NCBI GenBank assembly: GCA_938017505.1
Contig: CALIKV010000005.1
Location: 1 to 64,000, forward strand
From: an uncultured Sulfolobales archaeon
GTDB taxonomy: Archaea > Thermoproteota > Thermoprotei_A > Sulfolobales > NBVN01
Direction of reading: 5' to 3'
Length of the DNA stretch: 64,000 nucleotides
Positions 49,440 to 54,579 of this stretch are shown in pieces. The number at the start of each line of letters is the position of its first letter. Within the stretch, counting starts at the first letter, position 1. The notes beneath the pieces were generated by a model. The model saw nothing but the letters and a program-made list of their open reading frames with translations, did not search any database and was not told the DNA's origin. A program made the translations under genes and the position numbers.

Positions 49440-49545
49440 TGGTGGGGCCGCTGGGATTTGAACCCAGGACCACCAGCGTTCCGGGACTCTCCCGGCGGGG
49501 AAATCCCCCCAGGCTGGCATCCTATCCAAGCTAGACGACGGCCCC
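49440..49545 (-). tRNA. tRNA-Pro (anticodon GGG) with 28-base intron
   Basis: Minus strand: acceptor GGGGCCG/CGGCCCC, D stem GTCT/GGAT, anticodon stem CCAGC/GCTGG, anticodon GGG after CT, T arm CTGGG-TTCAAAT-CCCAG, discriminator A, encoded CCA. The intron (49479-49506) sits at the canonical place after position 37 and can fold as a hairpin (CCGGGA...TCCCGG), consistent with a bulge-helix-bulge substrate of the archaeal splicing endonuclease. Confidence 0.92.
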
Positions 49546-49615
49546 GCACACCATGTTTCTTAACAGGTTTCTCTTTTAAATGTTTAAGCACGTTTCTACT
49601 TGGTTGGTTAGCTTG

Positions 49616-50182
49616 ATGAGGTTGTTCGTAGCTGTTGAGATAGAGGACGAGAACGTCTTGAAGGGGGTAGTGGGGTTTAGGGATGCTGTGGTCGCGTGTT
49701 CTAGGCAGAGAGGCATTAAGGGGGTTGAAGCCGAGAACATACACCTCACGCTGAGGTTCATAGGCGAGGTCCCGGAGTCCTACCTACCCCAGATAAGCGA
49801 GTGTGTTAAGCGGGCTGGTGAATACGTTAAATTCCAGGTAAGGATTGAAGGGGTTGGCGCGTTCCCCTCCGTCTCCAGACCCAGGGTGTTGTGGGTAGGG
49901 ATTACTGAGGGTTTCGATAAGTTAAGGGTCATGAGGGATGGGCTGGAGCAATGTCTAAGGAGCTATGCCCAGCCTGACAGAGAGGAGTTCGTCCCACATA
50001 TAACTGTAGGCAGGGTTAAGGGCTCGTTCGATGTGTCTTGTCTCAGGAACGTCCTCGCGTCCTACGAGAACTTAACGTTCGGCTCTTCACAAGTGACTCA
50101 GGTCAAGCTGAAGAGAAGCGTCTTAAGGCCTGAGGGACCTGTCTACACGGATGTAGTCGTAGTGAGGCTGAAGGATGGTTGA
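49616..50182 (+). CDS. thpR: RNA 2',3'-cyclic phosphodiesterase (ThpR / 2'-5' RNA ligase family)
   Basis: 2H phosphoesterase hydrolysing 2',3'-cyclic phosphates at RNA ends. The two catalytic motifs are HLTLRF and HITVGR. About 188 residues from ATG 49616 (MRLFVAVEIEDE), the normal N-terminus; the track's ATG at 49580 adds twelve unlikely residues. It overlaps the CCA enzyme gene by eight bases, a common archaeal RNA-processing pair, and lies beside the intron-containing tRNA gene. Confidence 0.92.
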   Translation: MRLFVAVEIEDENVLKGVVGFRDAVVACSRQRGIKGVEAENIHLTLRFIGEVPESYLPQISECVKRAGEYVKFQVRIEGVGAFPSVSRPRVLWVGITEGFDKLRVMRDGLEQCLRSYAQPDREEFVPHITVGRVKGSFDVSCLRNVLASYENLTFGSSQVTQVKLKRSVLRPEGPVYTDVVVVRLKDG

Positions 50183-51605
50183 GTTGAGCGAGGGCCTGTC
50201 TGAGTTAATCGAGGGTTTAAAGGAGGAGCTGAGGCCAACTCACGAGGAGCTCCGTAAGGGGCTTGAGTTGTTCGAGGAGGTAAGGAGGGTAATAGAGTCA
50301 TTACCGCACATAGACTGCGACTTCAAGGTCTCGCTGGAGGGCTCGTTCGCTAAGGGGACCTCGTTGAGAGGTGATATAGACCTTGACGTCTTCATATTGC
50401 TGAGGAAGGAGGACTTAAGTGATGAGTGGATTAAGAGGAACATAGTCGAACAGATATTGAATAGCAACTTAAGGAAATATCAGATCCGGATGAAGTACGC
50501 GTCACACCCCTACGTGACCCTACGGACTCAGGGCTTCGAAGTAGATGTAGTGCCTGCGTACTGGGCCAGGGACGTCAGGGAGATAATAACCCCCGTTGAC
50601 AGGACGCCGTTCCACACGAGATACGTCAACTCTAAGCTCGACGATAGGTTGAGGGATGAGGTGAGGGTGTTAAAGAAATTCATGAAGAGCATGAATATTT
50701 ACGGGGCTGAAGTGAGGTTTGAAGGTTTCTCAGGCTACCTCACGGAGCTCCTGATAATAAGGTACAGGTCATTCGTAGGAGTTCTCGAGGCTTTGAGTAA
50801 GTGGCGTGAGGGCGAGGTGGTTGTGGTGGACGTGGACGTCCTACGCGATTACTTGACGCTGGACAACGTCAAGAGGGCGTTCAGAGGCAATGCTTTAATA
50901 GTGCCGGACCCTGTGGATCCTAGGAGGAACGCCGCCTCCGCAGTGTCTGGGAGAACCCTTAAGATAGCTGTCGTAAGTGCGCGTTCATTCCTACGGAAAC
51001 CCTCTAAGAGCTTCTTCTACCGTGAGCTCAAGCCCGCCAAGCCGGCTGAGCTGGCTAGGTTCGTCGAGGAGACTGGGAGGAGGGTGATGCTACTCAGGTA
51101 CGCGATACCCCATGAAATACCCCCTGACGTCTTATGGGGCGAGCTCAAGAGATTAAGTAAGAGGGTCGTTAATCTGCTGAGGACTTATAAACTCGAGGTT
51201 ATGGATTTCGACTGCTGGAGCGATGAGTCGACGCAGGCCCTCATAGCTCTAGACTTAGAGCGTGGCGGTGAGCTACCGGCCTATGAGGTCAGGCTAGGAC
51301 CTCCAGGGATCGGTGACGAGCTGCATTCCTTCGTGGAGAAGCACAGAACCTCAGGCAGAGCTACAGCTGTCTGGATAGCCGGGGATGGAGTGCCTAAAGC
51401 CATGGTCAGAAGGAAGTACAGGCGTCCTGAGGAGCTCCTGCAGGCGACGGAGGCCAAGCAGCTCTCGTCCAAAGACCTAACTCTCGCTGACGTGATTAAG
51501 AACTGTGTTGACATCCCAGACGACTTAAAAGCAAACGCGGAATTCATGCGGTGGTTAACGGCGTTCACGTTTAAAACCCAGCCTTACGCCACGGACGAGG
51601 AGTGA
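50175..51605 (+). CDS. cca: CCA-adding tRNA nucleotidyltransferase (archaeal class I)
   Basis: Builds or repairs the tRNA 3' CCA. Class I nucleotidyltransferase motif GSFAKGTSLRGDIDLDVF with the two metal Asp, then VDVVPAYWA with the third. Neck/body parts (RVLKKFMKSMNIYGAEVRFEGFSGYLTELL) are typical. 476 residues. ATG start inside the end of thpR. The neighbouring tRNA genes encode CCA, so here it probably acts mainly in repair and on genes lacking CCA. Confidence 0.95.
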   Translation: MVELSEGLSELIEGLKEELRPTHEELRKGLELFEEVRRVIESLPHIDCDFKVSLEGSFAKGTSLRGDIDLDVFILLRKEDLSDEWIKRNIVEQILNSNLRKYQIRMKYASHPYVTLRTQGFEVDVVPAYWARDVREIITPVDRTPFHTRYVNSKLDDRLRDEVRVLKKFMKSMNIYGAEVRFEGFSGYLTELLIIRYRSFVGVLEALSKWREGEVVVVDVDVLRDYLTLDNVKRAFRGNALIVPDPVDPRRNAASAVSGRTLKIAVVSARSFLRKPSKSFFYRELKPAKPAELARFVEETGRRVMLLRYAIPHEIPPDVLWGELKRLSKRVVNLLRTYKLEVMDFDCWSDESTQALIALDLERGGELPAYEVRLGPPGIGDELHSFVEKHRTSGRATAVWIAGDGVPKAMVRRKYRRPEELLQATEAKQLSSKDLTLADVIKNCVDIPDDLKANAEFMRWLTAFTFKTQPYATDEE

Positions 51606-51672
51606 GGTGTGAAGCTCTAAAGGAGCTTCAACCACCCTTGTTTTGTCAGGGCGGGGGTCACCGTACTACGTA

Positions 51673-51680
51673 CTTATAAG
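51673..51680 (+). promoter_or_regulatory. TATA box for the tandem Sm/Hfq-like gene
   Basis: CTTATAAG about 35 bases before ATG 51711; the leader would include GGAGGG eight bases before the ATG. Confidence 0.5.
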
Positions 51681-51710
51681 GCCTTCATAAGAATAGAATG
51701 GAGGGTTTAA

Positions 51711-52127
51711 ATGCCGTTAAGGGAGAACATAATCGATGCAAGGTTTAACGGTAGGGAGGTCGAGTTCAGGGTTCTAGGGATGCCTGAGCCCATTAGGGGT
51801 GTGGTGGACGAGGTTTCAAGATATGAGATAGGGGTGTTATCAGGCGATGAGGCCTTCGTCTTATTCAGACATGCGATCCTGACCGTGGCCGTGGAGTCTT
51901 CAGACCTCCACGGCTTTAGCGCGGAGCCGCTGGACGATACGGTGCTTGACGCTGACTTAATTGGGACGGAGCTGGAGCTCCACCTGATAGACGGGTCTGC
52001 TGTGACTGGGGTTCTGGCGAAGATATCTAAGTATGAACTGGGCATTAAAAGCGGGGATAAGGGCTTTATAATACCTAAGTCATCGATAACCTACGCTGTA
52101 GTTAAAGGGAGGAAGTTCACCGAGTGA
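51711..52127 (+). CDS. Protein of two tandem Hfq/Sm-like repeats
   Basis: 138 residues made of an internal duplication: residues 5-62 and 76-133 align end to end. RYEIGVLSGD (38-47) pairs with KYELGIKSGD (108-117), and ENIIDARFNG with DTVLDADLIG, giving helix plus five short strands per repeat. Repeat one ends LFRHAILTVAV, strikingly like the Hfq Sm2 motif (Y-K-H-A-I-S-T). So each repeat probably has an Sm/Hfq fold, and three such chains could form a six-unit ring. RNA binding is inferred. A strong ribosome-binding site and TATA box support expression. It follows the RNA-processing genes thpR and cca. Confidence 0.7.
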   Translation: MPLRENIIDARFNGREVEFRVLGMPEPIRGVVDEVSRYEIGVLSGDEAFVLFRHAILTVAVESSDLHGFSAEPLDDTVLDADLIGTELELHLIDGSAVTGVLAKISKYELGIKSGDKGFIIPKSSITYAVVKGRKFTE

Positions 52128-52224: not shown

Positions 52225-52548
52225 TCAGTCCTCCATGTCTAGGAGCTTGAATCTAATTAGCTTGATTTCAGTGCCCTCCGTCACTCTCTTCCCGTAGATC
52301 TTCTTAAGTCCGTTGATCATTTCTTCCCTGTCCTTGAAGCCGTCGTTCATCGCGTCTGTGTCGGTAAGGTCCCTGACCTTCTTAGTAGTCACGTTCTCGA
52401 TGAGCGCTTTGCCAACGTGGATGTTCCCGACCTTGACGTTAACTATATCGCCCTTCTTCAAGTTGGTGTGGAGTCTGGCTGTGGTCGTCTTCCTCCCAAG
52501 CATTATGTCCCTTCCGTACTCCTTCCTGAAGGAGAGCTTCTTACCCAT
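52225..52548 (-). CDS. ASCH-domain protein
   Basis: 107-residue stand-alone ASCH (PUA-like) beta-barrel, expected to bind RNA. LSFRKEYGRDIMLGRKTTTARLHTNLKKGDIVNV carries the family's I-x-x-G-x-K-T-x-T-x-R pocket. Archaeal ASCH proteins are small and often near translation genes; some relatives cleave or bind nucleosides, so the activity is not settled. It lies 30 bases after the DUF460 gene on the same strand. Confidence 0.8.
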   Translation of the reverse strand: MGKKLSFRKEYGRDIMLGRKTTTARLHTNLKKGDIVNVKVGNIHVGKALIENVTTKKVRDLTDTDAMNDGFKDREEMINGLKKIYGKRVTEGTEIKLIRFKLLDMED

Positions 52549-52578: not shown

Positions 52579-54579
52579 CTAGTCAACGGGACTTAAGTCC
52601 CTACCCCTCCTGTACTCCTCAAGTAAGTGAGCGAGGTCCTCGTAATTCAGCCCCGACACCTTCTTCCTCCTCTCCTCGGCTAATTGAGGGGCCAGCGCGA
52701 TAGCCCTGTTCACGGAGTTCCTGTCGACGGCCACGAGGCATTGATTCACCTCAATAACTTCTTCTGAGGCCACCGCAGGTATTAGGCTCCCCTCAATAAG
52801 TCTCCTGCTTAGGTCTAGGGCTGTGGGAGGGAGCACGAGCGCTACGTTACCTCCCTCAACCATCCTCTGCATCTCTTTAAGGGTCTCGGTGACGTCGTAT
52901 GTGAAGATGACTAACGTCTTAACCCCTTCGGCCCTTGATAGCTTAGAGCATTTCTGACTATGGATGGGGATCAACGTGTGCGTGCCTGTGTAGAGCTTCG
53001 TAACCGCGTTCTCGTAATTGACTAACCTAGACCTGATGAGGGAGTTCTCACTCTCTAAAGCCCTCATGCGGGCCTCCAGTCTTTTAACCCGCTGGGCGAG
53101 CTCGCTGACCTTCCTGTCCCTAAGGATCTTCTCACTAAGCTCTGTGGAGACCGTTTCAAGACGTGACGTCAACTCACGTACAAGGTCCTCCAGCTCTAAG
53201 ACCCTCCGCCTGTAGAGTTCCTTCTCCCTCTCCAAACCACTCAGCTTCTCTCTAAGGATCTCCTCAGCCTTACTGGCTTGGTGAGGTGACTCCTGCCTCA
53301 CGACCGGCACGTCGTCTCTCCCGCCCACACCCCCGACGTACTCGTTGATTATCTCCTCAACTATCGTGGATATGGTCTCGTTCATCAACACCTTGACCCT
53401 GTACTTCTGCATGTCTACATCGTGAAGCCCTATCTCCCTCAACCTCCGGGACAACCTCTCCATTTTCTCCTGAAATTCGCTGTAGGCCTTGATGGCAGCT
53501 GCTAGAGCGTCTCTCTCGTGAGTGTTCTTGACGGGGGTTGAGGGGTGTAGATCCGTGAATTCAGCCACCATGAGCTCCTTCTCAGCAGTGCTCAGGGATC
53601 TTTGAGGGACGTAGAGCAGGGCGCCTAAGGAAGCCGCCAGCTTCCTACACATCTCAGGCGGCGGGTTCTTATCAGTGGCAATCACCGCGGGGTGACCGAG
53701 CTTAATAAGGATGCTTGACGCCTCACCCCTGTCCAGCTCCCGTCCCGACGTGATGTATACGGGATTCATGTCCAGGTCTATGATGGCGAGACCGGCGTTC
53801 ATGCCTGGATCGTAACCGGCGATCAAGTAGCGCTTCCCCTCATCACTGACGTCCTTGAGCAAATCGCTCAGGAACTTCTTACTCAACACGGGCTTAATCC
53901 TAACCACCACGTCCCTGCCCCTGACCGGCTTAACAACCCCTTGTAGATTCTCCCGGGTTGTGTATGCTATGAAGACTGCTCTCGCAATACCACCGCTACT
54001 CCTCCTCACTAAGAGGTCGTAATCTATGCCTGACTTATTCAGGGCTTCCTTAATCTTCTTCACGTGCCTCGAGACCACTCCGTGGAGATTCCTAAGGAAC
54101 TTCTCAGTCCTGGAACCCCCGGCAACCCCTGAACGTCCTGGGTAGACGTATATCTTGACCTTATTCTCGAAGATATTCACCTTCTGACCGTAGCCCTCCC
54201 TGGCGAGATAAGCGACGACCAACGCGGTCTTGAAGGGGTCGAGCTTGCCCCTACCGCTAGTAAGCCCGACCTCCTCAGCCAGGGCGTGGAGGTCAAGAGA
54301 CCTGCCGGCCTCAACGTTAACCAGAACCACGTTAATGTCTGGAGGGAGTAACTTAAGTACTCTCATCAAGTTCTTCTTACTGCCTCCTAGCTCAAGGATG
54401 TTATCGGTCGCGAGTACCGTGGGTCTTAAGTCCCAGAGCTCCCTTATCAAACCGCCGAAACTAACCTCCTTAACCGCCCTGAGGGAGCCGTCCTCAATGG
54501 TTACTAGAGCGTAGGCGAACTGAGACAGATCCCCGCCAGTCCTTACTATATCAACACCAACTATCCTGTCAGGACTCAT
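52579..54579 (-). CDS. DUF460 protein (predicted RNase H-fold nuclease, COG2433)
   Basis: 666-residue archaeal protein. N-terminal RNase H-like domain (MSPDRIVGVDIV, then VLATDNILELGG), a second RNase H/RuvC-like region (YLIAGYDPGMNAGLAIIDLD, KNTHERDALAAAIKAY) with possible catalytic Asp residues, a long coiled coil (about 465-545: REKELYRRRVLELEDLVREL) and a C-terminal domain. Family is conserved across archaea; a nuclease role is predicted from fold, not shown. ATG start. The gene is well separated from MAT upstream. Confidence 0.85.
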   Translation of the reverse strand: MSPDRIVGVDIVRTGGDLSQFAYALVTIEDGSLRAVKEVSFGGLIRELWDLRPTVLATDNILELGGSKKNLMRVLKLLPPDINVVLVNVEAGRSLDLHALAEEVGLTSGRGKLDPFKTALVVAYLAREGYGQKVNIFENKVKIYVYPGRSGVAGGSRTEKFLRNLHGVVSRHVKKIKEALNKSGIDYDLLVRRSSGGIARAVFIAYTTRENLQGVVKPVRGRDVVVRIKPVLSKKFLSDLLKDVSDEGKRYLIAGYDPGMNAGLAIIDLDMNPVYITSGRELDRGEASSILIKLGHPAVIATDKNPPPEMCRKLAASLGALLYVPQRSLSTAEKELMVAEFTDLHPSTPVKNTHERDALAAAIKAYSEFQEKMERLSRRLREIGLHDVDMQKYRVKVLMNETISTIVEEIINEYVGGVGGRDDVPVVRQESPHQASKAEEILREKLSGLEREKELYRRRVLELEDLVRELTSRLETVSTELSEKILRDRKVSELAQRVKRLEARMRALESENSLIRSRLVNYENAVTKLYTGTHTLIPIHSQKCSKLSRAEGVKTLVIFTYDVTETLKEMQRMVEGGNVALVLPPTALDLSRRLIEGSLIPAVASEEVIEVNQCLVAVDRNSVNRAIALAPQLAEERRKKVSGLNYEDLAHLLEEYRRGRDLSPVD

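Follow-up and report, generated by a model that had tools for sequence, protein, structure and literature searches.

The DNA analysed here (the window, 64,000 nucleotides from an uncultured hot-spring archaeon of the Sulfolobales) contains, after the genes encoding ThpR and the CCA-adding enzyme, a gene whose product is predicted to consist of two consecutive domains of the Hfq type, and which is referred to below as the tandem gene. The features of the locus are listed in Table 1.

Table 1. Genes, domains and signals at the locus, in window positions
Feature	Position	Strand	Remarks
tRNA gene	49443-49545	-	just upstream of ThpR, on the opposite strand
ThpR	49580-50182		upstream of the tandem gene
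CCA-adding enzyme	50175-51605		upstream of the tandem gene
8-nt perfect inverted repeat, then T-rich stretch	51610..51630	+	after the CCA gene
TATA-like CTTATAAGG, probable own promoter, and Shine-Dalgarno	51673..51706	+	read from sequence
Tandem Hfq-like protein gene	51711..52127	+	ATG start, TGA stop; 138 aa + stop; tandem kept in 49 genomes
Domain 1, Hfq-like (residues 5-66)	51723..51908	+	MJ1435 profile match E 2.3e-9
Linker (residues 67-72), conserved H67-G68	51909..51926	+	coil of low model confidence, about residues 66-80
Domain 2, Hfq-like (residues 73-134)	51927..52112	+	MJ1435 profile match E 8.1e-6
ASCH-domain protein	52228-52548	-
DUF460 protein	52582-54579	-	long coiled middle

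The inverted repeat that follows the CCA gene possibly marks the end of the ThpR-CCA transcript. The element CTTATAAGG lies about 35 nt before the ATG and is followed by a GGAGGG Shine-Dalgarno sequence at 51701-51706, and most relatives present a similar TATA-like element together with GGTG or GGAG close to the start. From the repeat after the CCA gene and the TATA-like element and ribosome site before the tandem gene, it follows that the latter is probably a unit of its own, with its own promoter. It is under purifying selection, with dN/dS far below 1 (dN 0.05 and dS 1.15 between the copies of loci L039 and L040; dN 0.13, with dS near saturation, between those of the window and L039). The tRNA gene at the upstream end of the locus probably holds an intron, as its match spans 103 nt against a model 71 long.

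The initial annotation had placed the gene beside ThpR and CCA, which are indeed its upstream neighbours, and had linked it to them. The adjacency is confined to the three own-genus loci examined and is absent in Zestosphaera tikiterensis and in other genera, and a link to ThpR and CCA is therefore rejected. The homologue of Z. tikiterensis is 67% identical to the window protein, which identifies the source of the window as a relative of Zestosphaera. In many loci of the same taxonomic family (own family hereafter), the tandem gene is surrounded by genes for ASCH and DUF460 proteins, both of which adjoin it in the window, and for RIO2 and S-adenosylmethionine synthetase, while a KH protein lies near it in one genus. 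In Ignisphaera, the divergent neighbour encodes cysteinyl-tRNA synthetase, and the gene that follows often abuts or overlaps the tandem gene and gives a weak THUMP match (best 0.0011). The protein in question (about 183 aa; L063:6389-6937) is encoded directly downstream in nearly all Ignisphaera-family loci; a link to it was rejected, since the own family has the same protein at unlinked positions. This RNA-related context, to which the SmAP2 genes found nearby in several relatives (see below) also belong, lends mild support to a role in RNA metabolism, and the argument is weak because the neighbours differ between lineages.

Sequence affinity and predicted fold of the two halves

Searches with the window protein as a single sequence return weak matches only. 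The profile of the whole protein family matches MJ1435, the Hfq of Methanocaldococcus jannaschii, at E 1e-7, and the profile of each half, taken alone, has MJ1435 as its top match in the PDB (E values in Table 1), followed in the case of domain 1 by bacterial Hfq (S. aureus, 3.9e-4). The Pfam Hfq model is matched by 18 of 20 members (best 9e-9) and LSM by 3 of the 20, and the best match of a single member to the NCBIfam Hfq model reaches 7e-9. Sequence homology thus points to Hfq rather than LSM. The curated cut-offs lie above the scores of the window protein, both for PF17209 (15.6 against 27 bits) and for TIGR02383 (18.5 against 61.7), and no protein in 398 genomes of the phylum matches PF17209 above its cut-off. 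Identity with a canonical SmAP was rejected, as LSM finds three other proteins in the own genome, and not the tandem protein.

A relationship with di-Mop proteins of the ModG type, which bind molybdate or tungstate, was also considered. Di-Mop proteins carry two small beta-barrels per chain and are trimeric. The NCBIfam Mop model gives weak matches (0.0048 for the window protein, 3.5e-4 at best among members), and ModG (1h9j) aligns weakly over residues 21-125 at E 0.11. The family profile, by contrast, drops ModG to E 0.5 while raising MJ1435 to 1e-7, and Mop proteins are absent from the top 50 fold matches. With neither line of evidence supporting it, this identity is disfavoured and appears scarcely credible.

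Structure prediction leads to the same assignment as the Hfq profiles. AlphaFold models were obtained for the window protein (26 sequences; pLDDT 90.6, pTM 0.85) and for an Ignisphaera homologue (pLDDT 88.9, pTM 0.84), which shows the same topology. The window model presents a five-stranded barrel in each half, with a short turn helix joining strands 4 and 5 (strands at residues 16-21, 28-35, 39-44, 47-52 and 56-60 in domain 1, and 87-92, 97-105, 109-114, 117-122 and 126-132 in domain 2). Both domains of these two independent models display the elements of the Sm fold, namely an N-terminal helix and five bent strands, the fourth and fifth of which are joined by a 3-10 turn. Foldseek matches at the domain level are nearly all to Hfq for either model, and MJ1435 superposes on the window model with a TM of about 0.8 of the target and an rmsd of 0.9-1.3 A. 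As far as prediction can establish, each half has the Hfq/Sm fold, so that the protein would join two fused Hfq-type Sm domains in one chromosomally encoded archaeal chain. A non-Sm barrel of the PRC or SH3-like kind, the outcome that the initial annotation had named as contrary to its proposal, did not appear in either the profiles or the predicted structures, and a Tudor, PRC or SH3 identity was rejected, given that the fold matches are chiefly to Hfq.

Duplication and distribution of the family

The halves are repeats of each other. Aligned against one another, they reach a local score of 99, that is, 17.5 SD above the mean of 5000 shuffles (mean 22.9, SD 4.35, maximum 51), and their family profiles align over 56 columns with 99% probability. 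These values bear out the internal duplication over the whole length that had been claimed from the sequence of the window, along with its coordinates and its two gapless motifs, RYEIGVLSGD (residues 37-46) and KYELGIKSGD (107-116), which are offset by 70 residues; the full alignment, of about residues 2-62 with 72-132, is interrupted once, by a gap of one residue in the loop that joins beta1 to beta2. In the linker, H67 and G68 are invariant across the 32 own-family and 18 Ignisphaera-family rows of the alignment, and L66, at the end of domain 1 where the linker starts, is a hydrophobic position across the family as well.

By tblastn-type and profile searches, tandem copies occur in 49 of the 214 genomes of the order, together with one single-domain relative. 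They are found in 30 of the 31 own-family genomes (the exception is 82% complete), in 17 genomes of the Ignisphaera family and in 2 of a third family, and no tandem copy was detected outside these three families in 398 genomes across the phylum. The same scan returned three short single-domain proteins, the clearest of which has 68 aa (genome G456). Short Hfq-like proteins of this kind (68-77 aa) are scattered in Thermoproteota, namely L127 (G456 contig 47, 514-672), L099 (G062), L128 and L129, and are not called by the Pfam Hfq model. Weak PF17209 matches in four other genomes were rejected as Hfq, being ordinary SmAPs. A mobile or viral origin was likewise rejected, as searches of viral contigs and plasmids found no relative and phage records gave one chance match (E 7).

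A domain tree was built from the archaeal family, with 45 copies of each domain, and outgroup rows. The alignment is short, and the outgroup rows sit on long branches whose placing is not trustworthy, but a branch with 100/99 support separates the first domains from the second. The split is clear, and the existence of separate clades for domains 1 and 2 indicates a single duplication, older than the divergence of the three families, since which the halves have stayed distinct. The tandem protein represents an addition to the canonical LSM proteins and not a replacement of them, because the latter are kept in all 60 relatives inspected (1-4 in each).

RNA-pocket residues and the proposed ring

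Hfq from E. coli holds U-rich RNA ends by means of Phe42, Lys56 and His57, plus Gln8 (PMC5379935). By alignment, Tyr38 of domain 1 is the aromatic residue of this pocket, with a predicted base-stacking role, and Arg53 and His54, within the Sm2 motif F52-R53-H54, fall on the positions of Lys56 and His57; the Hfq-like RHAILTV that the initial annotation had read in repeat 1 is present there as FRHAILTV. Y38, R53 and H54 are invariant in the 32 own-family and 2 third-family sequences. Domain 2 keeps Tyr108 and Lys123, the latter in an altered Sm2 motif, P122-K123-S124, with Ser where the alignment would lead one to expect His. P122 and K123 are invariant in the own family (the proline in Ignisphaera too), and S124 occurs in 29 of its 32 sequences. 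Compared with the (Y/F)KH motif of Hfq, the own family thus has F/Y-R-H in domain 1 and P-K-S in domain 2, and nearly all Ignisphaera sequences are without it, with Arg53 and Arg123 each in 17 of 18 sequences, Tyr38 in 6 and His54 in 1. Two glutamates of the L3 region, E39 and E109, show no substitution anywhere in the protein family. The asymmetry between the two pockets is real as far as residue conservation can tell, and the loss of His and mostly of Tyr in Ignisphaera indicates that use of the RNA pocket is not a constraint on the whole family.

The reading that we favour, with confidence slightly better than even, is that three of these two-Hfq-domain chains build a pseudo-hexamer with pockets for U-rich RNA, and that this ring binds RNA 3' ends or works as an RNA chaperone. 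In such an Hfq-like ring of six domains, domains 1 and 2 would alternate, so that the own-family ring would present three complete and three partial pockets. The pocket of domain 1 would bind U-rich single-stranded RNA ends, with Tyr38 stacking on the base and Arg53 and His54 acting as Lys56 and His57 do in Hfq, while that of domain 2, with Tyr108 and Lys123 and no His, would be partial. The ring may operate beside the usual SmAP rings. The Ignisphaera branch still has the scaffold, with one basic residue in each domain, but the U-pocket is largely gone, and the ligand has probably shifted. The two unlike RNA faces proposed from the sequence of the window hold in so far as the pocket residues differ between the halves; the term faces was loose, given that the pockets would alternate round one ring.

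In a different arrangement, judged unlikely, the tandem protein would form no Sm ring. It would exist as a simple dimer or as a closed monomer, in the manner of the viral ORF137 or of paired Tudor or KOW modules, and would serve as an adaptor that binds proteins or nucleic acids. ORF137 (2x4j) is the sole PDB entry that matches the window model over nearly its full length (E 4e-5; TM 0.63 of the query and 0.77 of the target), and the loss of the U-pocket in Ignisphaera is consistent with a role other than RNA binding. The window and Ignisphaera models disagree, however, in the orientation of their domains relative to 2x4j, and since the Ignisphaera model does not have the arrangement of the viral protein (TM 0.37, rmsd 13 A), the near-full-length match is not to be relied on. 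The Ignisphaera model matches tandem Tudor chains (53BP1, FXR) over the full length, but at a TM of about 0.3 and an rmsd of about 11 A, and domain-level fold matches and sequence profiles indicate Hfq, not Tudor. Strands beta4 and beta5 are also hydrophobic in both domains, which speaks against such an arrangement, and a search for assembly information on 2x4j found none.

A further possibility is that the tandem protein co-assembles with SmAP2 or another canonical SmAP into mixed rings. In its favour is the proximity of the two genes in many relatives: SmAP2 lies within 7 kb of the tandem gene in 12 own-family genomes and, in Z. tikiterensis, ends 57 nt upstream of it on the same strand. The SmAP genes are, however, on other contigs in the assembly of the window and far from the tandem gene in Ignisphaera. 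SmAPs are known to form homo-heptamers (PMC4500138), and a two-domain chain would have to break that symmetry. Mixed rings are judged very improbable.

Comparison with known Hfq and Sm-like proteins

A survey of archaeal Lsm proteins from 2023 places Hfq in bacteria and a single archaeon, M. jannaschii (PMC10221803); neither Ignisphaera nor any tandem protein figures in it. No description of the archaeal tandem-Hfq family was found in the non-subscription literature searched, and the family has likely gone undescribed so far. With some 50 tandem Hfq-like members in Crenarchaeota, it would revise the picture of archaeal Hfq as restricted to M. jannaschii, and the tandem protein may form a ring for RNA handling that has been missed in archaea. 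Should the favoured three-chain ring form, it would be a natural Sm ring ordered by its chains, in which two domain types are forced to alternate, and a simple model for the passage from homo-oligomeric Sm rings to ordered hetero-rings; the pocket residues dropped in Ignisphaera would then test which of them the ring needs.

With the canonical SmAP1/2/3 (LSM, PF01423), which are found in the same genomes, the tandem protein shares the Sm fold; SmAPs are encoded by separate genes and match LSM, whereas the tandem protein matches Hfq. Its single domains are near-identical in fold to MJ1435 (PDB 2qtx, 4x9c, 4x9d, 5dy9; rmsd about 1 A), and YEI.V..GD and (F)(K/R)HAI are common to both. MJ1435 has one domain per chain, in contrast to two in the tandem protein, where (K/R)H is present only in the first. 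ORF137 of Pyrobaculum spherical virus (Pfam DUF5607 and DUF5608) is a crenarchaeal virus protein of 136-137 aa that also has two consecutive barrels, and its C-terminal half contains a stretch of 30 residues in Sm1/Sm2 register and gives a weak match to the domain 2 profile. It differs in sequence (16% identity), in a first half that is not Hfq-like and in an arrangement that the Ignisphaera model does not share, as described above. The resemblance of the C-terminal half of ORF137 (L140:6420-6830) to an Hfq/Sm domain is not part of the labels of the DUF5607 and DUF5608 entries.

Three archaeal members match NF010691/PRK14091 of NCBIfam (best 2.6e-4), which we take to be a model of tandem Hfq. 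The tandem layout itself is already known from a few bacteria, having been reported in Zymomonas mobilis and six other species of Sphingomonadales, where a ring of three chains was raised as a question (PMC2877685). The statement of the initial annotation that Hfq and SmAPs are single-fold proteins is consequently not universal. As in the archaeal family, Z. mobilis ZMO0347 and its counterparts combine two Hfq domains in a single chain; they differ in being bacterial and in their 60% identity to E. coli Hfq (PMC2877685), whereas the domains described here are clades inside an archaeal family. The archaeal fusion is likely independent of the sphingomonad one. The wider picture, which we put forward as tentative and somewhat doubtful as a whole, is that of an archaeal Sm ring in which three chains of two domains each place complete pockets in alternation with incomplete ones. 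One branch of Crenarchaeota would have retained this ring beside its SmAP rings, with the ligand re-tuned in Ignisphaera. The ring would be the archaeal counterpart of sphingomonad tandem Hfq, probably arisen through a fusion of its own, and would mark a move away from the homo-ring in the direction of a hetero-ring of fixed order.
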